DNA from: Pseudoxanthomonas sp.
GTDB taxonomy: Bacteria; Pseudomonadota; Gammaproteobacteria; Xanthomonadales; Xanthomonadaceae
Direction of reading: 5' to 3'
Assembly (NCBI RefSeq): GCF_002863005.1
Contig: NZ_PKDG01000009.1
Location: forward strand, 1-64,000
Length of the DNA stretch: 64,000 nucleotides
Part shown: positions 1 to 10,903 of the stretch, one piece after another
How positions within the stretch are numbered: the stretch's first letter is position 1
How the letters are laid out: every line of letters begins with the position of its first letter
Notes under the pieces: model-generated
What the model was told of the DNA's origin: nothing
Database searches by the model: none
Seen by the model: the letters and a program-made list of their open reading frames with translations, nothing else
Position numbers and translations under genes: made by a program

Positions 1-2224
1 ACAGGGTGGTGCTCTCGCCCGGATTGATGATCGGCCAGTCGCCGGAGTACCACGGGCAACCCGCGACGTGGTTGATGCGCGCATCCTCCACCGCCCGTGT
101 GACCTTGCGATACGTCGCATTGACGCCGTACGACCAGGCCTGGTTGATCGCCTGCTGGAAACCGAGGATGTACTCGTCCTGGAAGACCTGCTTGAGGTCC
201 CTGGCGACGGCGGTGCGCACATCGTCCGGCGCAGGCGCGTTGCCATCCGTGTTCACCGGACCGATCTGCGGCCCCAGGTCCGGGACCAGGTACGTCGCAC
301 CGGTGACCGGGTGCGTCTGCTGGATCCAGCCATTGAGCACGTAGTAGGTGTGCTCGTCCGTGGTGCCGCCACCGAAGTAGTCGGTCAGCTTGTTGGTGAG
401 CGGAATGTAGTAACGACCGGCGTTGCCGAAGAGCTTGGTCGTGCCGTCGCCCTTCATGTCCCAGCTGAAGCCGACGCGCGGCGCCATCATGTCCGAGAAG
501 TCGGCCTTGGCGAAGGTGGCGCCGGAGGCGAGCTTGTTGTGGAACTTGTCGAAACGCAGGCCCAGGTTCAGCAGCAGGTTGGGCGTGACGCTCCAGTTGT
601 CCTCCACATAGAACGCCTGTGCCTCGGTGGTGACGGGAGAGCCCGTGATGTAGCGGCGCGCGTCGATGATGCGGGTGACGCCTGCCGGCACCAGCGCACC
701 GTTGGGCAGCACGGCGCCGGCATTCGCGGCCTGCGCCTGGTAGCTGACGCCGTCGCCCGGGTAGACCACCGAGCTGTCCGAATCCATGATCTCCTGGTCC
801 AGGCCGAAGCGCAGCAGGTGATCGCCCAGCGTCCATTCGAAATCCAGGCGCGCCGCTTCGCGCTTGTCGTAGCGACTGCTGATGCTGGTGTCGGTCGGGT
901 GGCAACCCTCGGGGATCGTCTCCGCCCCGAAGCGGGTCGTGTAGCTGCCGGACCGGGTGACGATGCTGCAGTCGGCGTCGAGCGGCGTACCGCTGAGGGC
1001 ACTGCGCTCGTTAACGCCGTACATCGCCTTGGCGGTGAAGTTGTCCCCGAAGTGTCCCGTGTACGTCAACGACCAGTTATCGCCGCCGGAACCCGCGGTA
1101 CTGCCGCCCCGCCAGTTGCCCAGCATGCCGGTGTCCCACGTGTAGCCGTACTTGGTGGTTTCCGAGTCCGCCTTGTCGGAGAAGGCGAGCAATTCCAGCG
1201 CGTGGTCATCGTTGATACGCCAGTCCAGCTTGGCGCCCCAGAAATCATTGTTGCTCTTGGTCTTCCAGGCCTCGATCGTGTCGATGTCCTTGGGCTGGCT
1301 GTCGCGCATCTCGTACATCGCGAAGAAGAACAGGCGGTCCTTCACGATCGCGCCGGATGCCCACACGTTGGCCTTGTAGAACGGACTCGTGTCGCGGCTG
1401 GTGCGGTTGCGCTCGTCCAGCGTGCCATCGCGATGGAAGTGGTCTTCCTTCGAGGCTTCCCATGCGGAGGGCTCGAGCGTCAGCTCCGCACCGGCCTGGA
1501 ATTCGTTGCTGCCCGATCGCGTGACCGCATTGATGACGCCGCCGGTGCTGCGCCCGAATTCCGCCGAGTAGCCGCCCGTCTTGACCTGGACCTCTTCGTA
1601 GAAGCCGAACGGCACCGACGAGAAGCCCTGGCGGCGGTACGGGTCGGTGACATTGAGTCCGTTGATGTAGATGGCGTTCTCGGCGACCGAGGAGCCCCCG
1701 AAGGACAGGCCGCCGAACGTCGCGCCCGAATTGACGACGCCCGGCGCAAGCAGGGCGACGGAGCTCAGGCTCTGGTCGACCGGCAGGCGCGCCAGCTCCT
1801 GGCGGTTGATGTTGGTCGCGGACTCCGTGGACCGCACGTCCACGCGATTGACAACGCGCGAACCGACCACCTGTATCGCGTTGAGGTTCACCACGGCGCC
1901 GTCGCCGCCCAGGTTGACGGTGGTGGTCCCGCCCAGCGAGACATTGACCGCCACGCCATCGCCCACGTCCTGGCCGGCGCGCTTGACCTGCAACTGGTAG
2001 TCGCCGACCGGCAACTGGGCAAGGCGGTAGCCGCCATCGCCGCCCACGGTCACCGAGCGCGTCGCGCCGGTGGCGGTATTGGTGATCGTGATCTGGTCGC
2101 CCGCGTTCGCACGGCCCGCGACCGCGCCCGTCGCGCTCTGCGCCATCGCCAGGGGCGCCATCGACGCCAGGCAGGCACCCAGCGCCATGCCCAGTGCCGC
2201 CTTCTTCAGAACCTTGCCTTTCAT
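1..2224 (-). CDS. TonB-dependent receptor, Oar-like (3' end outside window)
   Basis: An outer-membrane, TonB-energised receptor of the Oar type. About 741 residues are visible and the C-terminal part of the barrel runs off the left edge. The start ATG gives MKGKVLKKAA, a signal peptide ending near AMA-Q at residue 29, with a GAGAG ribosome site just upstream. Residues about 30-95 form a carboxypeptidase-regulatory-like domain (GDYQLQVKRAG), followed by a plug domain (QELARLPVDQSL, INGLNVTDPYRRQGF, TGGYSAEFGRSTGGVINAVT) and beta-strand-rich barrel sequence (GLRFDKF, NAGRYYIP). Substrates of Oar-like receptors are poorly known; peptides are one suggestion. It lies next to a transglutaminase-like gene on the same strand and divergent from a peptidoglycan-peptide operon, so a muropeptide ligand is an inference from context only. 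Confidence 0.9.
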   Translation of the reverse strand, partial: MKGKVLKKAALGMALGACLASMAPLAMAQSATGAVAGRANAGDQITITNTATGATRSVTVGGDGGYRLAQLPVGDYQLQVKRAGQDVGDGVAVNVSLGGTTTVNLGGDGAVVNLNAIQVVGSRVVNRVDVRSTESATNINRQELARLPVDQSLSSVALLAPGVVNSGATFGGLSFGGSSVAENAIYINGLNVTDPYRRQGFSSVPFGFYEEVQVKTGGYSAEFGRSTGGVINAVTRSGSNEFQAGAELTLEPSAWEASKEDHFHRDGTLDERNRTSRDTSPFYKANVWASGAIVKDRLFFFAMYEMRDSQPKDIDTIEAWKTKSNNDFWGAKLDWRINDDHALELLAFSDKADSETTKYGYTWDTGMLGNWRGGSTAGSGGDNWSLTYTGHFGDNFTAKAMYGVNERSALSGTPLDADCSIVTRSGSYTTRFGAETIPEGCHPTDTSISSRYDKREAARLDFEWTLGDHLLRFGLDQEIMDSDSSVVYPGDGVSYQAQAANAGAVLPNGALVPAGVTRIIDARRYITGSPVTTEAQAFYVEDNWSVTPNLLLNLGLRFDKFHNKLASGATFAKADFSDMMAPRVGFSWDMKGDGTTKLFGNAGRYYIPLTNKLTDYFGGGTTDEHTYYVLNGWIQQTHPVTGATYLVPDLGPQIGPVNTDGNAPAPDDVRTAVARDLKQVFQDEYILGFQQAINQAWSYGVNATYRKVTRAVEDARINHVAGCPWYSGDWPIINPGESTTL

Positions 2225-2276
2225 CCCCGCTCTCTCCTGCTAAAGATGGTGGTGAATCGTGTGGTGGTGTGTTTCG

Positions 2277-3767
2277 TCAGCCGCGCCCGTCCCGGGGCAG
2301 CACGGTCCATTCGAACTGGTAATCCCACTGGTCGAAGTAGAGGTTCCCGCCCCGCCACTCCACTTCCCCGCGCTGCAGGTCCACGGTCTCGGACCGGGCG
2401 TGCTGCTTGGCGGGGATGAACTCGCGCGAGTAGTCGTCGTTGAAGGCGACGCGGTAGGCGTCCAGGCCGCCCAGGTAGAACCAGCGCAGCGCCGGATCGT
2501 CCGAAGCCAGCTGGCCGGTGGTCACATCCATCGGGACCCAGCCGTAGGGCGCCAGGTACAGCGCGCCCCAGTCGTGCATGGTGTCGTGGCCCTCCACGTC
2601 TTCGGAGTACGCCCACCCGGACTGCCAGCGCGCGGGAATGCCGTTCATGCGCAGCAGCGTGATCAGAAGCAACGTCTGCTGGCCGCAGTCGGCATGGCCG
2701 GCGCGGAAGGCGTAGTCGCTGATGTTGCTGATGGTCGAGTACTCGCGCGCGCCGGCCCAGGGGATGCGGTCCACGGCGGCGAACAACTTCTGCGCGATGC
2801 GGTACGGATTCTTCTCGTCGCCGACGACCTGCTCGCTGAAGCGACGAAGGTCATCGCTGAAGACCACGTGCGGCGACCGCTCGGCGAGGAACGGCGCCAG
2901 CGCCGGCGTGGCGGTCACGGGCTCCACCCGCTCGGGATCGATCGCCACGCGGCGTGCATGCACGGTGACCTCGTATGTCACCGAGAACGTGGTCGGCTGT
3001 CCCGCGAGGGCAGGCTGCTCGAGGTAGGCGGTGCGCTGCAGCGCGCGTTCGGGCGCGATCTGCGGGCGCGCGGGCTGGCTGGCGACCAATGCGATCGCCT
3101 CCTGCTGCCCCGCGATGGCGCGTGGGTACGGCAGCCAGGCGCGGATGGTTTCGCCTGCGGGCACCGCATCCGGCTTCACGCTCACGGTATGGGTGATGCG
3201 TACGCGCCGCGGCAGCACGCTGCTCGCGGCGGTCGCCTTGCTGACCTGCACCACGTCGCGATGATGGCGGTGCAGCGCTTCGTATGGCCCTTGGGCGAAC
3301 GGTCGCACCGGCGGCGCGCGACGCGCGGCCGCTTCCGGGCTAATTCGGAACAGGTTCGACGCCGACCGGTTGAAATAGAGGGGCCGGCCGTCGATGTCGA
3401 GCCGCTCGATCAGGCCCGCCCGGTCCCAGCGCTGGAATTCCTCATCGCTCAGGTCGGGAATCTGCGCGCGCACGCGCTCGCGCACGGCGTCGGCATCGAG
3501 GGCGAAATCCAGCCGGATGCGGCGCATGCGCTCGCGCTGGAACTGCAGGGCCTGCCGACGGGCATCATCCGCCGCCCCGTCCGCAAGCGCCCGGGCGATC
3601 GCGTCTTCCGCCTGCTGGAAATGCCCCCGGTCGATGTCGGCGACGATGGCCGCGAGCGGATCGCCGGCCTCGGCCAGGCCGGGCACCGGGAGTACCATCG
3701 GCCACCCGCACAGCGACAGCCACGCCGCCAGGCGCCGTCGGGCCCGCCTGTCGCGTCCTGCCACCAC
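2277..3767 (-). CDS. Exported transglutaminase-like superfamily protein
   Basis: About 496 residues with a transglutaminase-like (papain-fold) core. The likely triad is visible: Cys near 360 in GHADCGQQ, His near 397 in MHDWGALY and Asp near 413 in PMDVTTG. The N-terminal half is a helical plus beta-sandwich region of unknown role. I chose the GTG at 3767 because an AGGAA ribosome site precedes it and a basic then hydrophobic signal peptide follows (RRARRRLAAWLSL). ATG starts at 3800 and 3845 would add residues ahead of the signal peptide. Bacterial proteins of this type act as peptidases or amide-cleaving enzymes more often than as crosslinkers. It follows the Oar-like receptor gene's strand with a 52-base gap, so the two are probably co-transcribed. 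The exact substrate is unknown. Confidence 0.8.
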   Translation of the reverse strand: MVAGRDRRARRRLAAWLSLCGWPMVLPVPGLAEAGDPLAAIVADIDRGHFQQAEDAIARALADGAADDARRQALQFQRERMRRIRLDFALDADAVRERVRAQIPDLSDEEFQRWDRAGLIERLDIDGRPLYFNRSASNLFRISPEAAARRAPPVRPFAQGPYEALHRHHRDVVQVSKATAASSVLPRRVRITHTVSVKPDAVPAGETIRAWLPYPRAIAGQQEAIALVASQPARPQIAPERALQRTAYLEQPALAGQPTTFSVTYEVTVHARRVAIDPERVEPVTATPALAPFLAERSPHVVFSDDLRRFSEQVVGDEKNPYRIAQKLFAAVDRIPWAGAREYSTISNISDYAFRAGHADCGQQTLLLITLLRMNGIPARWQSGWAYSEDVEGHDTMHDWGALYLAPYGWVPMDVTTGQLASDDPALRWFYLGGLDAYRVAFNDDYSREFIPAKQHARSETVDLQRGEVEWRGGNLYFDQWDYQFEWTVLPRDGRG

Positions 3768-3862
3768 GTGCTGGTTCCTGCTCGCATCCACGTCGCACAT
3801 CCCCACGCCGACTGGTCGCGGTTGTGTAACACGACGTGAACGCAAGGGTCAATAATTTATTC

Positions 3863-3895
3863 TTGATTTTTATGACGGAAGAAATAAATATTCTT
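3863..3895 (+). promoter_or_regulatory. Candidate promoter and operator for the NlpC-epimerase operon
   Basis: The only strongly AT-rich stretch of this region lies between the two divergent units. TTGATT (3863-3868) and TAAATA (3885-3890), 16 bases apart, make a plausible sigma-70 promoter for the plus-strand operon. Its -10 is covered by a perfect inverted repeat, AAGAA-N7-TTCTT (3879-3895). A related half-site, TTATTCTTG, lies at 3858-3865. The placement suits repression by the RpiR-type regulator encoded in the same operon. That assignment is inference. Confidence 0.45.
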
Positions 3896-3957
3896 GTGGA
3901 AACCGCCCCGGCCATGGCGTCATGGTGGCGGGCGAGGGTTCTGGAAAAGGGGATGGG

Positions 3958-5406
3958 ATGAACACACCGATGTCGTACCGGCCCAGGGACCGTGCAGGTC
4001 TGCCGCAGGCGCTGGGTGCGCTCGCGCTGCTCGGCGGGTTGTTCGCCGCGCTGCCGTCGATCGCGCAAGAGCCGCTGGCCGTCCCGGCGCATGCCGTCAT
4101 CGGAGTACAGGCGCGGCATCTCCAGCCCGAGGACTGGGTCCGCCGCCTGTCCGCACCGGACCGCCTGCTGCTGGACACCCGGGGCGTCGCGGCGCAGAAC
4201 GAACAGATGTGGCAGCGCGATCGTCATGTGCATGACCTGCAACGCCTGCCCGCGGAACTGACGCGCGCCGACGTGCGCGCGTGGCTCGACCCGTTGTCCT
4301 CGGCTCCCACCCGGACGCTGTACGACGACAAGGGACGCGACATCACCCGCGAACAGCTCGCCGGGTTCGTCGCCAACGCAGCACTGGATGCCATTCCGAC
4401 CCGTGCGCCTGCACGCTACGGCCTGGTCGTGCATCGCGCCGACCTGCGCACGTTCCCGACACGCGAGCACGTATTCAGCAGCAAGGACGACACCGATATC
4501 GACCGATTCCAGGAAAGTGCGCTGTTCCCCGGCACTCCGGTCGTGATCGCCCACACCAGCGCCGACGGCGCGTGGTACTTCGTGGTAAGCCCGCTCTACG
4601 CCGCCTGGATCGAGAGGCGCCACGTCGGCGAAGGCGCCCGCGAGATGGTGTTCGGTTACGGCGCCGGCCCGTCCGCGCTGGTGGTCACCGGCGCCACCGC
4701 GCGCACGGTCTACAACCCGGAAGAACCCGGACTGTCGGCATTGCAGCTGGACATGGGCGTGCGCGTCCCGGTGCTGGCCGACTGGCCGGCTGACAAGCCG
4801 GTGAACGGGCAGCATCCCTATACCTCGCATGTCATCCAGCTGCCGGTGCGCCGCGATGACGGCACGCTCGCACTGTTGCCCGCGCTGTTGCCCAGGACGG
4901 CCGATGTCGCCCCCGACTACCTGCCGTACACCCCGGCCAACCTGCTCCGCCAGAGCTTCAAGTTCCTGGGCGAACGCTATGGCTGGGGCCACCGCTACGA
5001 CAGCCGCGATTGCAGCGGCTTCGTCTCCGAGGTGTACCGCAGCATGGGCATCATCCTGCCCCGCAACACCAGCGCCCAGGCGGTCAGTCCCGCGCTCGAA
5101 CGCATCGGCTTCGACGCCGGCGACAGCCACGAGAAGCGGCTGGAGGTCCTCCGCAGCTTGCAGGTCGGCGACCTGGTCTACATCCCCGGCCACGTGATGA
5201 TGGTGATCGGACACGACAACGGCACCACCTACACCATCCACGACACCACCGGCATCACCTATCGCGGCGCCGACGGCCGCGTGGTCCGCACCACGCTCAA
5301 CTCGGTCGCCGTCACGCCGCTGGAGCCCTTGCTGTTCAACAGCGAGCAATCCACCGTCGATCGCATCACCGCCATCCAGCGCATCCGTCCCCAAGGGGCT
5401 CCATGA
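3958..5406 (+). CDS. NlpC/P60 family gamma-D-glutamyl endopeptidase, exported
   Basis: About 482 residues, with a signal peptide (residues about 12-38, ending PSIAQ). The layout matches YkfC-type murein endopeptidases: an N-terminal stabilising region, an SH3-like segment about 160-220 (LRTFPTREHVF, DGAWYFVVSPLY), a second SH3-like segment and a C-terminal NlpC/P60 domain. Catalytic Cys is near 351 (RDCSGFVSEVY), His near 411 (PGHVMMVIG) and a third polar residue near 427 (IHDTTG). Family members cut the gamma-D-Glu to diamino-acid bond of muropeptides, releasing L-Ala-gamma-D-Glu. The start ATG at 3958 follows a GGAAAAGGGG ribosome site; an upstream in-frame ATG at 3922 lacks one. Its stop overlaps the start of the epimerase gene (ATGA), placing cleavage and epimerisation in one transcript. 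Confidence 0.9.
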   Translation: MNTPMSYRPRDRAGLPQALGALALLGGLFAALPSIAQEPLAVPAHAVIGVQARHLQPEDWVRRLSAPDRLLLDTRGVAAQNEQMWQRDRHVHDLQRLPAELTRADVRAWLDPLSSAPTRTLYDDKGRDITREQLAGFVANAALDAIPTRAPARYGLVVHRADLRTFPTREHVFSSKDDTDIDRFQESALFPGTPVVIAHTSADGAWYFVVSPLYAAWIERRHVGEGAREMVFGYGAGPSALVVTGATARTVYNPEEPGLSALQLDMGVRVPVLADWPADKPVNGQHPYTSHVIQLPVRRDDGTLALLPALLPRTADVAPDYLPYTPANLLRQSFKFLGERYGWGHRYDSRDCSGFVSEVYRSMGIILPRNTSAQAVSPALERIGFDAGDSHEKRLEVLRSLQVGDLVYIPGHVMMVIGHDNGTTYTIHDTTGITYRGADGRVVRTTLNSVAVTPLEPLLFNSEQSTVDRITAIQRIRPQGAP

Positions 5407-6500
5407 AGATCACAGACATCACCTTCGGCATGCTGCGCGTGCCGCTGAAGACACCGTTCAAGACCGCGCTGCGCACCGTCGACACGGTGGAGGACATCGT
5501 GGTCATCGTGCATACCGACACCGGCCATGTGGGCTATGGCGAAGCGCCTGCCACCGCGGTCATCACCGGCGACACCCACGGCTCGATCGTCGAGGCGATC
5601 GGCAAGTTCATCCGCCCGCGGCTGATCGGACAGGAGATCGCCAACCTCAACCACATCACCGACCTGGTGCAGACCGCCCTGGAGCGCAACACCAGTGCCA
5701 AGGCGGCCGTCGAGATCGCGGTGTACGACCTGTGGGCGCAGCTGTACGACGCGCCGCTGTACAAGATGCTCGGCGGTGGCGACCCGGTCATCACCACCGA
5801 CATCACCATCAGCGTCGACTACATCGACAAGATGGTGGCCGACTCGATCAGCGCGGTGGAGCGCGGCTTCGAGTCGCTGAAGATCAAGGTGGGCAAGGAC
5901 ATCGGGCTGGACATCGAACGGGTCAAGGCCATCTACTCCGCGGTCGAAGGCCGGGCGCTGCTGCGCCTGGACGCCAACCAGGGCTGGACCGCCAAGCAGG
6001 CCGTGTTCGCCATGCAGCACCTGGAGGACGCCGGCGTCGTCCTGGAACTGCTGGAGCAGCCGGTGAAGGCGCGCGACCTGGACGGCCTGAAGTACGTCAC
6101 CGACCGCGTGCACACGCCGGTGATGGCGGACGAGAGCGTGTTCGGCCCGACCGAGGTCATCGACCTGATCAAGATGCGCGCCGCCGACATCATCAACATC
6201 AAGCTGATGAAGACGGGCGGCATTTCCAACGCCATCCGCATCGCCGACATCGCCTCGCTGTACGGCGTGGAGTGCATGATCGGCTGCATGATCGAGACCA
6301 GCATCAGCGTGGCCGCCGCCGTGCACGTCGCGGCAGCGAAGGCCAACGTCATCACCAAGGTCGACCTGGACGGACCCTCGCTGGGACAGTTCAACCCCGT
6401 CGAGGGCGGGGTGATCTTCAACGAGTCGGAGATCACCATCACCGAAGCCCCGGGCCTGGGTATCCGCGAGATCCGTGGCCTGGAGATGCTGCCGGGCTGA
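5403..6500 (+). CDS. L-Ala-D/L-Glu dipeptide epimerase
   Basis: A 365-residue enolase-superfamily enzyme of the muconate-lactonising subgroup. It interconverts L-Ala-D-Glu and L-Ala-L-Glu so that ordinary dipeptidases can then split murein-derived dipeptide. Visible motifs: the catalytic KxK near 160-162 (LKIKVGKD), metal ligands in RLDANQGW (about 189), ELLEQPV (about 217) and MADESVF (about 242), the second catalytic Lys in NIKLMKTGG (about 267), and the C-terminal DxD of dipeptide epimerases near 320 (KVDLDGP), which in characterised members holds the substrate amino group. The gene is the YcjG/YkfB equivalent. It overlaps the NlpC/P60 gene by four bases. The DxD motif makes a dipeptide substrate more likely than a muconate or N-acyl amino acid. 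Confidence 0.92.
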   Translation: MKITDITFGMLRVPLKTPFKTALRTVDTVEDIVVIVHTDTGHVGYGEAPATAVITGDTHGSIVEAIGKFIRPRLIGQEIANLNHITDLVQTALERNTSAKAAVEIAVYDLWAQLYDAPLYKMLGGGDPVITTDITISVDYIDKMVADSISAVERGFESLKIKVGKDIGLDIERVKAIYSAVEGRALLRLDANQGWTAKQAVFAMQHLEDAGVVLELLEQPVKARDLDGLKYVTDRVHTPVMADESVFGPTEVIDLIKMRAADIINIKLMKTGGISNAIRIADIASLYGVECMIGCMIETSISVAAAVHVAAAKANVITKVDLDGPSLGQFNPVEGGVIFNESEITITEAPGLGIREIRGLEMLPG

Positions 6501-6554
6501 ACCCGGTGGCGATGGCCCGTTGTCAGCACCGTCCACCGCCATCACACTCACGCC

Positions 6555-7412
6555 ATGACAACCTCCCTGGTGAAGATCCGCTCCGAACGCGACCAGATGT
6601 CGGCCATCGAACGCCGCATCGCCGACTTCATCCTCGACAACGCGCACCTGCTGCGCGACTACTCGTCGCAACAGCTCGCCAGCGCGCTCGGCATCAGCCA
6701 GTCCAGCGTGGTGAAGTTCGCGCAGAAGTTCGGGTTCAAGGGATACCCCGACCTCAAGTACACCATCGGCGAAGCCGTCGCCCGCAACGGCAATGGCCAC
6801 GCGATGCCGCCGCACGCCGAGAGCGAGGACGCCGGCGATGCCTACCAGCAGCTGCAGGACGGCCTGCGCCGCAGCAAGATGGCGGCCGAGGAGGAAACCC
6901 GCAGCCTCAACCCGCGCGCGCACATCGAGCCGATCGTCAGCCTGATCGACGGGGCCGACAAGGTGTTCGTGTGCGGCCTGGGCGACGATGGCCTGTTCGC
7001 GCGCGAGTTCGCGATGCGCCTGTCGCTGCTGGGACTGCTGACGGTGCACCACGCCGATCCGATCCTGATGATGGCCAACCTGTCGGCCGTGCGTCCCGGC
7101 GACGTGCTGCTGATGTTTTCCGAGTTCGGCAAACTGCCCGAGCTCTCGCAGGTGAGCCGGCAGTTCCAGGCCTGTGAGGGCAAGGTCATCTCGATCACGC
7201 GCCATACGGCCAATCCCTTGCGTGCGCACGCCGACGCCGCGCTGGTGATCTCGGCGCATGATCCCGCGCCGCACGTGGAACAGCTGCTCTATCGCTCGTC
7301 GCTGCAATCGCTGCTCGACTTCGTGTTCGTGCTGCTGTGCCAGTCCAATCCGGACCGCAACCGTCAGCTCGCCATCAACCTCGAACGCATCCACCATCTG
7401 CTGGAGTCGTGA
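6555..7412 (+). CDS. RpiR/MurR-family transcriptional regulator (HTH plus SIS domain)
   Basis: A 285-residue regulator with an RpiR-type helix-turn-helix in residues about 5-80 (SQQLASALGISQSSVVKFAQ, KGYPDLKYTI) and a SIS sugar-phosphate-binding fold from about 125 to 265 (VFVCGLGDDGLFAREFAMRL, VISITRHTANPLRAHAD). MurR, a well-known member, senses MurNAc-6-phosphate, so the family fits a peptidoglycan-recycling setting. It sits 54 bases after the epimerase gene and its stop overlaps the next start (TGATG), which suggests autoregulation within the operon. The palindrome at 3879-3895 is the best operator candidate seen. The ligand cannot be read from sequence. Confidence 0.88.
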   Translation: MTTSLVKIRSERDQMSAIERRIADFILDNAHLLRDYSSQQLASALGISQSSVVKFAQKFGFKGYPDLKYTIGEAVARNGNGHAMPPHAESEDAGDAYQQLQDGLRRSKMAAEEETRSLNPRAHIEPIVSLIDGADKVFVCGLGDDGLFAREFAMRLSLLGLLTVHHADPILMMANLSAVRPGDVLLMFSEFGKLPELSQVSRQFQACEGKVISITRHTANPLRAHADAALVISAHDPAPHVEQLLYRSSLQSLLDFVFVLLCQSNPDRNRQLAINLERIHHLLES

Positions 7413-8200
7413 TGCCCTTACTGTCGTTTCCGCGTCTCCCGTTGGGATCGTTCGCGCTGACCCTCGCCCTGATCGCGAGCAGCGGCCCTGCACTCGCCGC
7501 CGATGCGCCCGCGTCGCAGCCCTGGCGCGACGCGCGCCAGCTGGTGCTGGTGGTGACCGAGGGATGGGATGCTACCGACGCTACGTTGCAGCGTTTCGAG
7601 TTGCGCGACGGCCGGTGGCAGGCGGCGGCGGCCGCAGCGCCGGTTTCGGTCGGACGCCATGGCAGCGCCTGGGGTCTGGGCCTGCACCCGGTGCAGGCGC
7701 AGGGACCGCAGAAGCAGGAGGGCGATGGCCGTGCCCCCGCAGGCGTGTTCACGCTGGGCGAGGCCTTCGGCTATGCCGACAAGGCCGACACGGCCATGCC
7801 GTACCGCGCGATGCAGGCGACCAGCTATTGCATCGACGTGCCGGATTCCCCGCTCTACAACCGCATCATCGATACGCGCACGGAAGGCGAGGCCGCCGCG
7901 AAGGGCTCGACCGAGCCGATGCGGCTGGACCTGCACAACAAGGGCGATGTGCGCTATCGGGAGGGCCTGGTGATCGGCCACAACCCGAAGGCCACGCCGC
8001 GCGCCGGCAGCTGCATCTTCGCGCACCTGTGGCGCACGCAGGGCGAGCCGACCGCCGGCTGCACGGCGATGGCAGCCGAGACGATGGAGGGTGTGCTGCG
8101 CTGGCTGCGCCCTGATGCGCGCCCGGTCTTCGTGCTGCTGCCGCGTGCCGAGTACGCGCGCCTGGCGCATGACTGGCAGTTGCCGGAGGCGGTGCGATGA
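7412..8200 (+). CDS. Exported L,D-transpeptidase (YkuD/YafK-like) family protein
   Basis: A 262-residue protein with a signal peptide ending near ALAADA (residue 31). The C-terminal part carries a YkuD-fold signature: His in CIFAHLWRTQGEPTAGC followed 13 residues later by the nucleophile Cys near 217 (TAGCTAM, where most relatives have SxGC). Conserved DLHNKGD and VIGHNPK lie before it. Such enzymes form or cut links between meso-diaminopimelate residues, or attach proteins to peptidoglycan; YafK/DpaA-type members act as amidases on lipoprotein crosslinks. Its place inside a muropeptide-catabolism operon, with overlaps on both sides, favours a hydrolytic or trimming role, but this is inference. 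A larger in-frame extension upstream overlaps the regulator gene and is not used. Confidence 0.8.
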   Translation: MPLLSFPRLPLGSFALTLALIASSGPALAADAPASQPWRDARQLVLVVTEGWDATDATLQRFELRDGRWQAAAAAAPVSVGRHGSAWGLGLHPVQAQGPQKQEGDGRAPAGVFTLGEAFGYADKADTAMPYRAMQATSYCIDVPDSPLYNRIIDTRTEGEAAAKGSTEPMRLDLHNKGDVRYREGLVIGHNPKATPRAGSCIFAHLWRTQGEPTAGCTAMAAETMEGVLRWLRPDARPVFVLLPRAEYARLAHDWQLPEAVR

Positions 8201-9459
8201 GGTGGCCAGGCGCCACGGCGCGCGTGCTTCTGGGTCTTGCCGCCGGTGCCGTGGTAGGCCTGGCGCTGGCGCACTGGTCACCTGCGAGTGCCGCCACGGC
8301 GGTCGCCATCGCGCAGCCCATCGGGAAGCTGTGGCTCAGTGGACTGCAGATGACGGTGGTGCCGCTGGTGCTGTCGCTGGTGATCCTGGGCGTCGCGACG
8401 GCGAGCGATGCTGCGGCTTCCGGCCGCGTGGCGCGGCGCGCGATGGTGGTCTTCATCGCCTTGCTGTCGCTGTTCGCGGCCTACGCGGCCATCGTCGCTC
8501 CACTCATCCTGTCGATGGTGCCGCCGAGCGCCGCGTTGACCGCCACCTTGCATGGCACGCTGCCGGCCTCCGGTGAGGTTGCCGCGCCGGGGCTGGCCGA
8601 CTGGATCGGTTCGATCGTTCCCAGCAACGCCATCATGGCGGCCGCCCAGGGCGCCATGCTTCCGGTAGTCGTTTTCGCGCTGTTCTTCGGATTCGCGCTG
8701 ACGCGCGTGCAGGAGGATCGCCGCGCGCAGATCATCGGGTTCTGCCACGGGATCGCCGACACCATGATCGTGATCGTGCGCTGGATGCTGCTGGCAGCGC
8801 CGATCGGCGTGTTCGCCCTGGTACTCGCTGTGTGCGCGCAGGCCGGTATCGGCGTCATCGGTGCGCTGGCGGGTTACATCGCCCTGCAGTGCGGCATGTA
8901 CCTCGGCGCGACGCTGATCTGCTACGTGCTGGTCGCGGTGTTCGCGCGGCAATCGCCGCTCGCGTTCGCAAAGGCGATCCTGCCCGCGCAGGTCGTGGCT
9001 GCCAGCACGCAATCCTCGCTCGCCTCGCTGCCGGCGATGGTGGAGAGCGCGCGCTTCCGCCTGGGACATCCGCGCGCCGTCGCCGCGCTGGTGTTGCCCA
9101 TGGCGGTGACGCTGTTCCGCATCACCAGCCCGATCCAGTACATCGTGGCGGCATGCTTCGTCGCGTGGGCCTATGGCATCGACGTCAACGCCGTCACGCT
9201 CGCCGCCGGCGCCGCACTTGCAGTGGTGATCAGCCTGGGTTCGATCGGCCTGCCGGGCCAGGTGAGTTTCATGGCCACGGTGATGCCGGTGACGCAGTCG
9301 ATGGGCCTGCCGATCGAACCGCTGGGCCTCCTGTTGGCGGTGGACACCATTCCCGATGTGTTCGCCACGACGGGCAATGTCACGGGTGACCTGACCGCCA
9401 CCAGCATCGTCGCGCGCCAGTCGCCCGACGCCCACGATACGGATATCCCCACAGGCTGA
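8197..9459 (+). CDS. Dicarboxylate/amino acid:cation symporter (DAACS, SLC1 family)
   Basis: A 420-residue integral membrane protein with about eight hydrophobic spans plus two re-entrant loops. Family features are visible: KLWLSGLQMTVVPLVLSLV near the N-terminus, a Ser-rich hairpin (AASTQSSLASLPAMVESA, about 268-285) and the C-terminal binding region with TGNVTGDLTATSIVA near 390. Members import glutamate, aspartate or C4-dicarboxylates with sodium or protons. The start overlaps the preceding stop (ATGA). As last gene of the operon that releases and epimerises L-Ala-Glu, glutamate or a small acidic peptide is a reasonable cargo; the substrate is not determined by the sequence. Confidence 0.88.
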   Translation: MRWPGATARVLLGLAAGAVVGLALAHWSPASAATAVAIAQPIGKLWLSGLQMTVVPLVLSLVILGVATASDAAASGRVARRAMVVFIALLSLFAAYAAIVAPLILSMVPPSAALTATLHGTLPASGEVAAPGLADWIGSIVPSNAIMAAAQGAMLPVVVFALFFGFALTRVQEDRRAQIIGFCHGIADTMIVIVRWMLLAAPIGVFALVLAVCAQAGIGVIGALAGYIALQCGMYLGATLICYVLVAVFARQSPLAFAKAILPAQVVAASTQSSLASLPAMVESARFRLGHPRAVAALVLPMAVTLFRITSPIQYIVAACFVAWAYGIDVNAVTLAAGAALAVVISLGSIGLPGQVSFMATVMPVTQSMGLPIEPLGLLLAVDTIPDVFATTGNVTGDLTATSIVARQSPDAHDTDIPTG

Positions 9460-9619: not shown

Positions 9620-10039
9620 TCAGAACGGCGTGAATCGCGGACCCGAGCGGCGCGCAAGCGACGCAGGGTGGTGCGAGAGCCTGTACGTGCTGACGAGTTG
9701 GCGGAGCGGATCGGCAATGTCCGCGTGCGCCTGCAGCGACGCGATCACGTCATCCCAGATGCCGTCCTGTGCCCAACGGGTGAAGCGGACATAGATGCTG
9801 TGCCACCGCCCCCATGCCAGGGGCAGCCGGCCCCATGGTTGCCGCGTGACGGCGACCCACAGCACCGCTTCGAGGAATGCCCGCGTCCGCTCGCCATTCA
9901 GGGCACGCGCGCGGACCAGAGGCGGCAACGCGGCCAGGATCGCCTCCCAGCGTGCATCGTCCAGTCGCAGCATGTCGGTCTGATCGACCCCGTCTTCGCG
10001 TTCCACCCCGAGCACCGGGTTCCTGTCTTGTCCTTCCAT
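9620..10039 (-). CDS. Stand-alone IS5-type transposase N-terminal domain (DUF4096-like)
   Basis: A 139-residue protein whose middle matches the helical N-terminal domain of IS5-family transposases: DARWEAILAALPPLV, then FLEAVLWVAVTRQPWGRLP, WGRWHSIYVRFTRWAQDGIWDDVI. The DDE catalytic domain that normally follows is absent. Instead there is a unique basic tail (STYRLSHHPASLARRSG). No terminal inverted repeats or target duplication were seen. The ATG at 10039 has an AGGAG site nine bases upstream; an upstream ATG at 10099 lies before that site. It is either a remnant that kept its frame or a domesticated DNA-binding protein. Confidence 0.7.
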   Translation of the reverse strand: MEGQDRNPVLGVEREDGVDQTDMLRLDDARWEAILAALPPLVRARALNGERTRAFLEAVLWVAVTRQPWGRLPLAWGRWHSIYVRFTRWAQDGIWDDVIASLQAHADIADPLRQLVSTYRLSHHPASLARRSGPRFTPF

Positions 10040-10268
10040 CCTGCGTGTCTCCTGACGCCCCGGAAAAACATGCGCGTTTGCACGCGCTGCGGTATCCATC
10101 CGCTTGCTGTTTCATTCGTCGGGACGCCACGAAACGGGACACACTTCATGCCCCGACGGGAATTGCAATCGCGCAACTGCTGAAAGTTCCCATCGTGTCC
10201 GCGCAATTTATGTACCGCTAAGTTTGGTATTCAGGAGGTGTTGTGAGCGGCGGCGGATACTTCGTGCA

Positions 10269-10321: not shown

Positions 10322-10903
10322 ATGAAGAAGTCCTTGCTTGCCCTGACCCTGTTGGCTGCCGCTCCGTTCGCCGCGTCGGCCGCGGAAGGCGTTTCCTACA
10401 ACTATGTGGAAGGCGGCTACACCGCCACGAACATCGATGGCCCCGATGCCGATGGTTGGGCATTGAAGGGATCTGTCGCGCTGCACCCGAATTTCCACGT
10501 CTTCGCCGACTACAGCACGCAGGAAGTCGACGACGTCAACGTCGATTTCGACCAGTGGCGGGTCGGCCTGGGCTACAACCATGAGCTGTCCCAGCGCGTC
10601 GATCTGCTGACCCGTGTTGCTTACGAGAAGGCCAAAACCGACAGCTTCAACGTCGGCGGCGTCCGCGTCCCCAGCTTCAGCGCAGACGGTTACAGCGTCG
10701 AAGTCGGCGTAAACAGCGCGCTGACCAGCCGCCTCAACGGCTACGCGCTGGCGGGTTATGAAGATGGCGATGACTACGACGGCGAGTTCTACGGCCGTCT
10801 CGGCGCGCAGGTGAAGTTCACCCCGAACTGGAGCGCCTCGGCCGACGTCAAGCTGGTCGACGGCGACACCCAGTGGTTCGTCGGTCCCCGCTTCAGCTGG
10901 TAA
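10322..10903 (+). CDS. ax21: Ax21-family outer-membrane beta-barrel protein
   Basis: A 193-residue protein with a signal peptide ending ASA-AEG (residue 21) and a small beta-barrel made of alternating strands, closing with the aromatic C-terminus WFVGPRFSW typical of outer-membrane barrels. The mature N-terminus AEGVSYNYVEGGYTATN is characteristic of Ax21 proteins of Xanthomonas and Stenotrophomonas. Ax21 was once proposed as a secreted quorum or immunity signal; those claims were withdrawn, and it is now regarded as an outer-membrane protein present in vesicles. It is monocistronic, with a structured leader and a strong terminator directly downstream. Confidence 0.85.
   Translation: MKKSLLALTLLAAAPFAASAAEGVSYNYVEGGYTATNIDGPDADGWALKGSVALHPNFHVFADYSTQEVDDVNVDFDQWRVGLGYNHELSQRVDLLTRVAYEKAKTDSFNVGGVRVPSFSADGYSVEVGVNSALTSRLNGYALAGYEDGDDYDGEFYGRLGAQVKFTPNWSASADVKLVDGDTQWFVGPRFSW

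Follow-up and report, generated by a model that had tools for sequence, protein, structure and literature searches.

Is there a dedicated route by which a bacterium takes up and degrades the peptides of bacterial cell walls? In Gram-negative bacteria, peptidoglycan recycling is known chiefly as the salvage of a cell's own wall through AmpG, and the question is raised by a divergent gene cluster at the start of a Pseudoxanthomonas sp. contig (NZ_PKDG01000009.1, here C5). The stretch analysed, hereafter the window, comprises the first 64 kb of this contig from a genome of 3.96 Mb; Pseudoxanthomonas japonensis and P. mexicana are among the closest named relatives of this genome (98–99% epimerase identity, together with gene order). 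We consider it likely that the cluster belongs to a dedicated regulon for the uptake and catabolism of peptidoglycan stem peptides, and we infer every biochemical step of it from gene identities, co-location and a shared sequence motif, which are observed. Conservation of the gene order across relatives, and the results obtained for an operator-like motif between the two arms, show that the arrangement did not arise by chance.

A divergent locus divided between two contigs

Profile searches of positions 1–9459 confirmed the domain families of seven genes, and all of the families named in an earlier note on this DNA are present. The features are as follows (coordinates are those of the window):

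2–2224, minus strand: Oar-type TonB-dependent receptor (OAR), 3' part missing; CarboxypepD_reg, Plug, OMP_b-brl_4 and TonB_dep_Rec matches
2277–3845, minus strand: exported transglutaminase-core protein (TG), probable cysteine peptidase; open reading frame (ORF) from TTG 3845, start uncertain
3823–3831, strand not given: conserved TGTGTAACA element, possible -10 region of a leftward TG-receptor promoter in our own reading
3847–3863, plus strand: operator-like site 1, GGTCAATAATTTATTCT, a conserved motif in the divergent region
3879–3895, plus strand: operator-like site 2, AAGAAATAAATATTCTT, beginning 32 bases past site 1; conserved GAA.TA..TATTC block
3922–5406, plus strand: exported SH3b-NlpC/P60 protein, probable gamma-D-Glu-diamino acid endopeptidase; PF12913, PF00877, closest structure 3m1u
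5403–6500, plus strand: L-Ala-D/L-Glu (dipeptide) epimerase, YkfB type, no signal peptide apparent; MR_MLE domains, 1jpm match
6555–7412, plus strand: RpiR-family regulator with HTH_6 and SIS domains, presumed operator binder from motif co-occurrence; PF01418, PF01380
about 7409–8200, plus strand: exported YkuD-fold protein, possible L,D-carboxypeptidase from fold comparison
8197–9459, plus strand: SDF/DAACS-fold inner-membrane permease lacking the arginine for acidic substrates; PF00375 at 257.9 bits, motif counts

Start and stop codons overlap at three of the four forward junctions (5403–5406, 8197–8200 and, if GTG 7409 is the start, 7409–7412), as the earlier note had described for most of the operon; the epimerase and regulator genes are separated by a gap of 54 bases. 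On the other arm, the receptor is cut by the contig end after 741 amino acids, compared with 1,001 and 1,008 in the relatives checked. Judged from the DNA of a close relative (L032), the gene continues at the beginning of another contig of the same genome, C9, and the starts of the two contigs have 123 identical bases in common, which lie inside the receptor gene. Past the remainder of the receptor, C9 encodes an AmpD-like amidase, a second TonB receptor, an S12 beta-lactamase-fold protein, a VanX-like M15 dipeptidase and a DadA-like dehydrogenase (202 bits against a cut-off of 383). The whole unit is about 18 kb, twice the length of the cluster at 1–9459, which is half of a larger locus.

The arrangement recurs across Lysobacterales

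One genome per species was scanned, yielding 361 confirmed relatives of the epimerase, and the counts for named loci given here use the best 80 of these. Genes were called with a purpose-built codon-bias caller and named with profile hidden Markov models trained on these loci. Because the caller did not work for the low-GC loci L163, L164 and L165, and for the most part not for L166 either, plain ORFs were used there. A further 39 loci were counted beside the 80 (119 in all, with L121, L165 and L193 excluded and L163, L164 and L166 under-called). The earlier proposal had been open to refutation by a gene order confined to this strain, and the arrangement is kept well beyond it: the order receptor-TG, divergent from NlpC/P60-epimerase-RpiR-YkuD-permease, recurs in Pseudoxanthomonas, Lysobacter, Luteimonas, Rhodanobacter, Dyella, Frateuria, Fulvimonas, Tahibacter and Vulcaniibacterium, as well as in Xanthomonas massiliensis, Xanthomonas chitinilytica and a Stenotrophomonas. 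Partial orders are found in Steroidobacter gossypii, which lacks DAACS and YkuD, and in Povalibacter uvarum, which lacks DAACS.

NlpC and the epimerase are present in all 80 named loci, RpiR in 79, YkuD in 76, TG in 72, OAR in 70 and DAACS in 60, and one or another of DAACS, APC or DUF819 in 74. At one further locus, L180, the caller gave no NlpC, yet an ORF of 508 amino acids lies at that place. Junctions with a median gap of -4 were seen for YkuD-DAACS (56 pairs), LysA-M19 (19) and DAACS-DAO (18). In genome samples with less selection bias, the epimerase was detected in 90 of 149 genomes of the family (E ≤ 1e-40), 36 of 121 of the order (E ≤ 1e-60), 3 of 274 of the class (E ≤ 1e-60) and 11 of 398 of the phylum (E ≤ 1e-50), samples that overlap and that each include the genome studied here.

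An operator-like motif shared by receptors and catabolic genes

Between the divergent arms sits an operator-like motif, GGTCAATAATTTATTC, within a block conserved across the order: TGTGTARCA, 15 bases, GGTCAATAATTTATTC(TTGA), about 15 bases, and GAA.TA..TATTC. Motif scores of at least 13/19 were obtained in 98 of 103 divergent regions, compared with 0.7% of Markov-shuffled regions, and the 8-mer GTGTAACA occurs in 72 of the 103. An 18-base core, searched with up to three mismatches, has only two copies in the whole Pseudoxanthomonas genome (control, 0), one at window position 3849 and one on C9. The C9 copy separates the amidase gene from that of the second TonB receptor, towards which it turns the same TTGAC...GCTACAC side. 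Across the family, the exact 15-base core has 70 copies in 67 of 149 genomes (control, 0); all 67 contain the epimerase, and the motif is found in none of the 59 genomes without it.

For 68 of the 70 exact copies the epimerase is no more than 10 kb away; the other two are upstream of TonB receptors: the C9 site, and a site in genome G003 that precedes an Oar-type receptor (1518 bits) by about 100 bases. This receptor (L193:9740-13024) is surrounded by genes that match no locus profile, and the main locus of the same genome (L180) has no recognised receptor. The G003 receptor has moved and has kept both the operator and the putative receptor-side promoter element, and no other observation speaks so strongly for a place of the TonB receptor in the pathway. 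The earlier note had named missing co-regulation of receptor and operon as grounds for refutation. Comparative evidence, in which the motif is shared and is also carried by the moved receptor, supports co-regulation of the TonB receptors with the catabolic genes well, and the receptors very probably belong to the regulon.

Within the block, TTGACC...TTACAC may be a promoter, a reading that is ours alone. The conserved element at 3823–3831 falls within the longer TG ORF, and we therefore favour a shorter protein, its true start being more probably ATG 3800 or a GTG near 3765. A repeat search of the intergenic region returned weak inverted repeats only and missed the operator.

An RpiR-family regulator distinct from MurR

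The regulator belongs to the RpiR family, with HTH_6 (77.0 bits) and SIS (52.4 bits) both over their cut-offs. The earlier note had called it MurR-type, which does not hold: the NCBIfam MurR model gives 103.3 bits against a cut-off of 408, so that a MurR ortholog was rejected, and no gene in this locus was recognised as MurQ or as a MurNAc (N-acetylmuramic acid) kinase.

Regulator and motif travel together. In 121 loci, both are present in 99 and neither in 17, with RpiR only in one and the motif only in four; four of the 17 are caller failures (L163, L164, L165 and L166), leaving 13 informative, and L163 and L164 do encode distant RpiR proteins (151 and 187 bits). The motif-only loci comprise a caller miss (L087), the other half of the locus studied here (L121), a locus whose genome has RpiR elsewhere (L188, with RpiR at L187) and a weak 20-bit site (L152), and the divergent RpiR of L153 has no motif. 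The two also vary together within genera: in genus g7, G111 (L178) has both and G006 and G058 (L175, L176) have neither; in genus g11, both are missing from G060 (L167), and G010, G087, G113 and G136 combine the regulator with the exact core. This co-occurrence suggests that the RpiR protein binds the motif.

TonB receptors: two families in one variable slot

The window protein is assigned to the Oar type by its CarboxypepD_reg, plug and OMP_b-brl_4/TonB barrel domains, and full-length relatives agree (CarboxypepD_reg, Plug and OMP_b-brl_4 in L193; CarboxypepD_reg and OMP_b-brl_4 in L032). The second TonB receptor is of another family, its relative in L089 having Plug and barrel matches and no CarboxypepD_reg match. 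L036, L044, L089 and L109 lack the TG-OAR pair and have the second receptor family in its slot. The receptor slot is the most variable part of the locus: across L032–L037 the epimerase is 96–99% identical to that of the window, and the receptor only 58–82% in the five that have one. The receptor thus shows unusually fast change, or exchange between species, next to a near-constant epimerase. Such variability might reflect phage or bacteriocin pressure on a surface protein, or a shifting specificity for fragments.

The likeliest reading is that the TonB receptors import murein peptides. One alternative is that the enzymes salvage only the cell's own turnover peptides, with the receptors carrying a metal or vitamin cofactor, as might be suspected from the two different receptor families in one slot and from NlpC-epimerase-YkuD clusters that have no recognised receptor. 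Against such self-wall recycling, OAR or the second TonB receptor is found in 74 of the 80 named loci and the relocated receptor keeps the operator; an independent order (f139) pairs an Oar-type receptor with NamZ and MurQ; and no metal handling was found among the nine accessory families identified with Pfam and NCBIfam, the rarer flanking clusters being mostly unannotated. We regard it as unlikely, though the most credible competitor to peptide import.

Another alternative starts from Myxococcus, where Oar is described as a TonB-dependent secretion port for the protease PopC (in the available part of PMC11658791). An Oar-type outer-membrane protein is common to Myxococcus and this locus, here within a putative murein-peptide regulon, and it might likewise export the co-transcribed TG-like peptidase. 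TG lies directly upstream of OAR in 67 adjacent pairs in named loci, with a median gap of 59 bases, and the two largely occur together (both in 67 of the 80 named loci, TG only in five, OAR only in three, neither in five; with low-scoring Oar-like proteins included, 82, seven, nine and 21 of 119 loci). A strict secretion pair is weakened by those loci that have one without the other, among them the TG-only locus L180, whose genome has a receptor elsewhere. Furthermore, the second TonB receptor, which stands beside the amidase and not beside TG, has the same operator, and a natural TG-YkuD fusion in f139 suggests a single shared compartment. Secretion by this route therefore seems to us improbable, and import of murein peptides the better account of the receptors.

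Enzymes and permeases

The epimerase matches PF02746 and PF13378, and its best match in the Protein Data Bank (PDB) is YkfB (1jpm, E 8.9e-102 over residues 1–354). Residues K160, K162, K267, D190, E218, D243, R24, D321 and D323 each show at least 97% conservation across 82 sequences; we take these to be the catalytic lysines, the metal ligands and the substrate residues (R24, D321, D323). In two of the epimerase matches, L130 (G484) and L138 (G508), one TGA was reported inside the matched frame.

The NlpC protein combines SH3b and NlpC/P60 domains and matches 3m1u (E 5.3e-30, query residues 141–465), presumably DvLysin, an enzyme that cleaves the polymeric wall. A strict recycling endopeptidase of the YkfC type was considered and rejected. 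In YkfC, Asp256 is the signature for a free N-terminal L-Ala (available part of PMC2954226), and the window protein has Asn at this position (LPRN), as do 113 of 117 NlpC relatives, the other four having Asp.

The TG protein has a Transglut_core domain with Cys-His-Asp, and a PDB sequence search returned nothing useful (best E 0.49). The YkuD protein has the YkuD fold with catalytic His/Cys and no match in a PDB sequence search. Fold comparison was informative where these sequence searches were not: three of the top five matches of the YkuD protein were Pgp2, Csd6 and Bd1075, which we take to be L,D-carboxypeptidases, with YkuD itself within 1.5 Z; Foldseek alone gave Pgp2 at E 9.3e-4 with a TM score of only 0.35. 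By its predicted fold it is possibly an L,D-carboxypeptidase, a role that the earlier note had not proposed for it.

As for the permease, R397 of GltPh binds the side-chain carboxylate of the substrate, and the NMDGT motif is part of glutamate/aspartate symporters. Among 76 DAACS relatives the R397 position is Ala in 70 and Ser in two, with no readable motif in four, and the window protein has Ala; NMDGT is replaced by [FC]R[IL]TSP in 71, with four close variants and one stretch that does not cover the motif. A default role in importing glutamate or an acidic dipeptide was consequently rejected, and with it the earlier suggestion that DAACS imports the acidic product, the arginine being replaced in 72 of 72 readable sequences. 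DUF819 was found in 15 of 16 genomes tested, 14 of which have exactly one copy, in the locus or elsewhere; in the present genome it lies (L194:6557-7819) near OPT and POT peptide transporters.

Accessory genes point to murein as the probable substrate

Several further families recur in the 80 named loci: S12 in 53, LysA in 34, VanX-like in 28, M19 dipeptidase in 22, DAO-family oxidase in 18 and amidase in 14. Flanking clusters c13, c15, c16 and c19 (12–17 loci), at least two of them tryptophan genes by eye, and gpsA/secB were judged ordinary neighbours and left out of these counts.

The in-locus LysA of relatives is a diaminopimelate decarboxylase (451–485 bits in seven copies tested; TIGR01048 cut-off 297.9). 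All seven tested genomes with a locus LysA have two LysA matches, and all five without have one. The second match lies elsewhere, in a frame of 876–1214 amino acids that we take to be an aspartokinase fusion (just under the cut-off in G057, G026 and G054, and with a stop in the matched frame in G454). An extra LysA would fit a pathway in which released meso-diaminopimelate (mDAP) is consumed.

More distant loci have related gene sets. In L152, from another family of the order, the neighbours of NlpC and the epimerase at distances of up to 10 kb include MpaA (241 bits, cut-off 157) and alanine racemase, each above its cut-off, together with a TonB receptor, a Glu/Asp racemase and an S66 LD-carboxypeptidase. 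In L163 (f139, another order of the class), they accompany an Oar-type receptor, a VanX-like protein, a D-amino-acid-transaminase-like protein, the exo-muramidase family NamZ, a kinase-MurQ fusion (MurQ over cut-off), a fusion of amidase, PG-binding and beta-lactamase-fold domains (L163:4067-6514) and one of transglutaminase-like and YkuD domains (L163:7572-9698), which ties the TG protein to the YkuD enzyme. NamZ, a BadF-type kinase, MurQ, an SSF symporter and RpiR are all seen in L163:1013-19962 and L164:5591-17447, with the Oar-type receptor in L163; from their gene content these resemble loci for the use of muropeptides, sugar included.

These families bear on what is degraded. DAACS, APC, the DAO-family oxidase and M19 are, as we understand them, not specific to murein, and the substrates might instead be other D-amino-acid or gamma-glutamyl peptides, such as poly-gamma-glutamate or peptides of racemised protein. 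The AmpD-like amidase, VanX-like dipeptidase, SH3b-NlpC protein and extra diaminopimelate decarboxylase, however, jointly fit murein best, as do the additions in the distant loci (MpaA and S66 LD-carboxypeptidase in L152, NamZ and MurQ in L163 and L164), which makes a non-murein substrate very improbable. The abundance of S12 beta-lactamase-fold proteins likewise raises the idea that class-C-like proteins and RpiR answer murein fragments and adjust resistance to beta-lactams or wall damage. The one S12 protein scanned, that of L040, scores far under the class C cut-offs (best 89.8 against 415, among the 25 of 47 families listed) and resembles AmpH and D-aminopeptidase, and catabolic enzymes dominate the locus; such sensing is the least probable of the alternatives considered. 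That the locus serves peptidoglycan-peptide catabolism, the core of the earlier note, is well supported by gene families, conservation and recurrent accessory genes.

A model for murein-peptide uptake and catabolism

In the model that we favour, murein fragments from outside or from wall turnover would be bound by the Oar-type and second TonB receptors and pumped into the periplasm. There, the AmpD-like amidase would release stem peptides from MurNAc; the YkuD-fold, VanX-like and S12-fold enzymes, and M19 in relatives, would take off D-Ala and split dipeptides; and NlpC/P60 would cleave the gamma-D-Glu-mDAP bond, the TG-like enzyme being probably another peptidase. Small products would cross the inner membrane through DAACS, APC or DUF819 permeases, DAACS or APC probably serving a neutral amino acid such as D-Ala, and L-Ala-D-Glu entering through DUF819 or another peptide permease. 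Once in the cytoplasm, the dipeptide would be turned into L-Ala-L-Glu by the epimerase, LysA (in relatives) would convert mDAP to lysine, and DadA-like or DAO-family enzymes would oxidise D-Ala. RpiR would repress both divergent arms and the second receptor through the paired sites about 32 bases apart, until a pathway intermediate lifts repression.

Several observations weigh against this model. No recognised TonB receptor lies in the fetched stretch of six of the 80 named loci (contigs end near L080 and L082), and four clusters have neither RpiR nor a profile-recognised receptor (L155, L156, L157 and L167, where large unlabelled genes occur); the receptor may not be required for every use of these enzymes. 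The exact core is missing in 23 of the 90 epimerase-bearing genomes of the family, and a sigma-70 consensus scan of 3750–3960 found no match. The locus in the window has no evident dipeptide importer, the genome's only DUF819 being outside it on contig C18. SIS domains usually bind phosphosugars, and no enzyme making MurNAc-6-phosphate was recognised in the Lysobacterales loci. Finally, the epimerase (255 against 500 bits for NF041118, 115.4 against 343 for NF011708), VanX-like, amidase and DadA-like proteins are below NCBIfam equivalog cut-offs.

Comparison with known systems

The locus shares features with several systems. In E. coli, MurR-MurQP as we understand it likewise places an RpiR-family regulator beside catabolism of a murein component, whereas the regulator here fails the MurR model and the locus has no recognised MurQ or phosphotransferase system. 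The N-acetylglucosamine (GlcNAc) regulons of Xanthomonas, as we understand them, also place TonB receptors and catabolic genes of this bacterial group under regulators of their own, but for sugars rather than peptides and with other regulators and operators.

An NlpC/P60 endopeptidase beside an L-Ala-D/L-Glu epimerase is likewise found in the ykfABCD/ykfBC genes of Bacillus, and the ykfB-ykfC association has been noted in Listeria, Acidobacterium, Solibacter, Bacteroides and Gramella (available part of PMC2954226). The B. subtilis ykf operon adjoins a dipeptide ATP-binding cassette transporter operon, and that part of the source describes no RpiR, TonB receptor or shared operator; unlike Bacillus YkfC, the NlpC protein here lacks the Asp256 signature. 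Caulobacter clusters for GlcNAc and peptidoglycan recycling (PMC13046382) likewise join a TonB receptor to sugar catabolism that intersects peptidoglycan recycling; they differ in their GlcNAc cargo and suggested GntR-type regulators, and the available text does not contain the word 'epimerase'. Among open-licence articles searched by title and the start of the abstract, none coupling a TonB receptor to murein-peptide catabolism was found, an absence that carries little weight; dipeptide epimerase and TonB are mentioned together in PMC6090828, where, in the part available, the epimerase is one table row, the available parts of PMC5507952 and PMC9471086 do not bear on the question, and the singular 'muropeptide' is absent from the available main text of the review PMC11658791. 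The ykfB-ykfC pairing is already known; the TonB receptors, the operator and the wider gene set were not met in the literature searched.

We would give an even chance to the broader proposal of an order-wide regulon in which TonB receptors of at least two families are devoted to importing murein stem peptides or muropeptides, under an uncharacterised RpiR protein and a near-unique paired operator that followed a moved receptor, and which lives on walls from bacteria that were lysed or preyed upon. If true, regulated outer-membrane uptake would make dead or killed bacteria a source of nitrogen and carbon, which would matter for Lysobacter and those of its relatives that lyse other microbes; it would also extend TonB-dependent transport to a further class of substrate. 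The operator motif offers an immediate handle for finding further members of the regulon, and the locus draws attention to unstudied parts: the TG-like exported peptidase, the arginine-less DAACS subfamily and the possible permease DUF819.

Immediately past the permease gene, a remnant of an IS5-family transposase (DUF4096; window 9620–10099, minus strand) separates the locus from a gene for an OmpO/Ax21-family porin (10322–10903, plus strand), which scores at the NCBIfam cut-off (250.4 against 250 bits). Such a porin follows the locus in nine of the 80 named loci, all of them in Pseudoxanthomonas.

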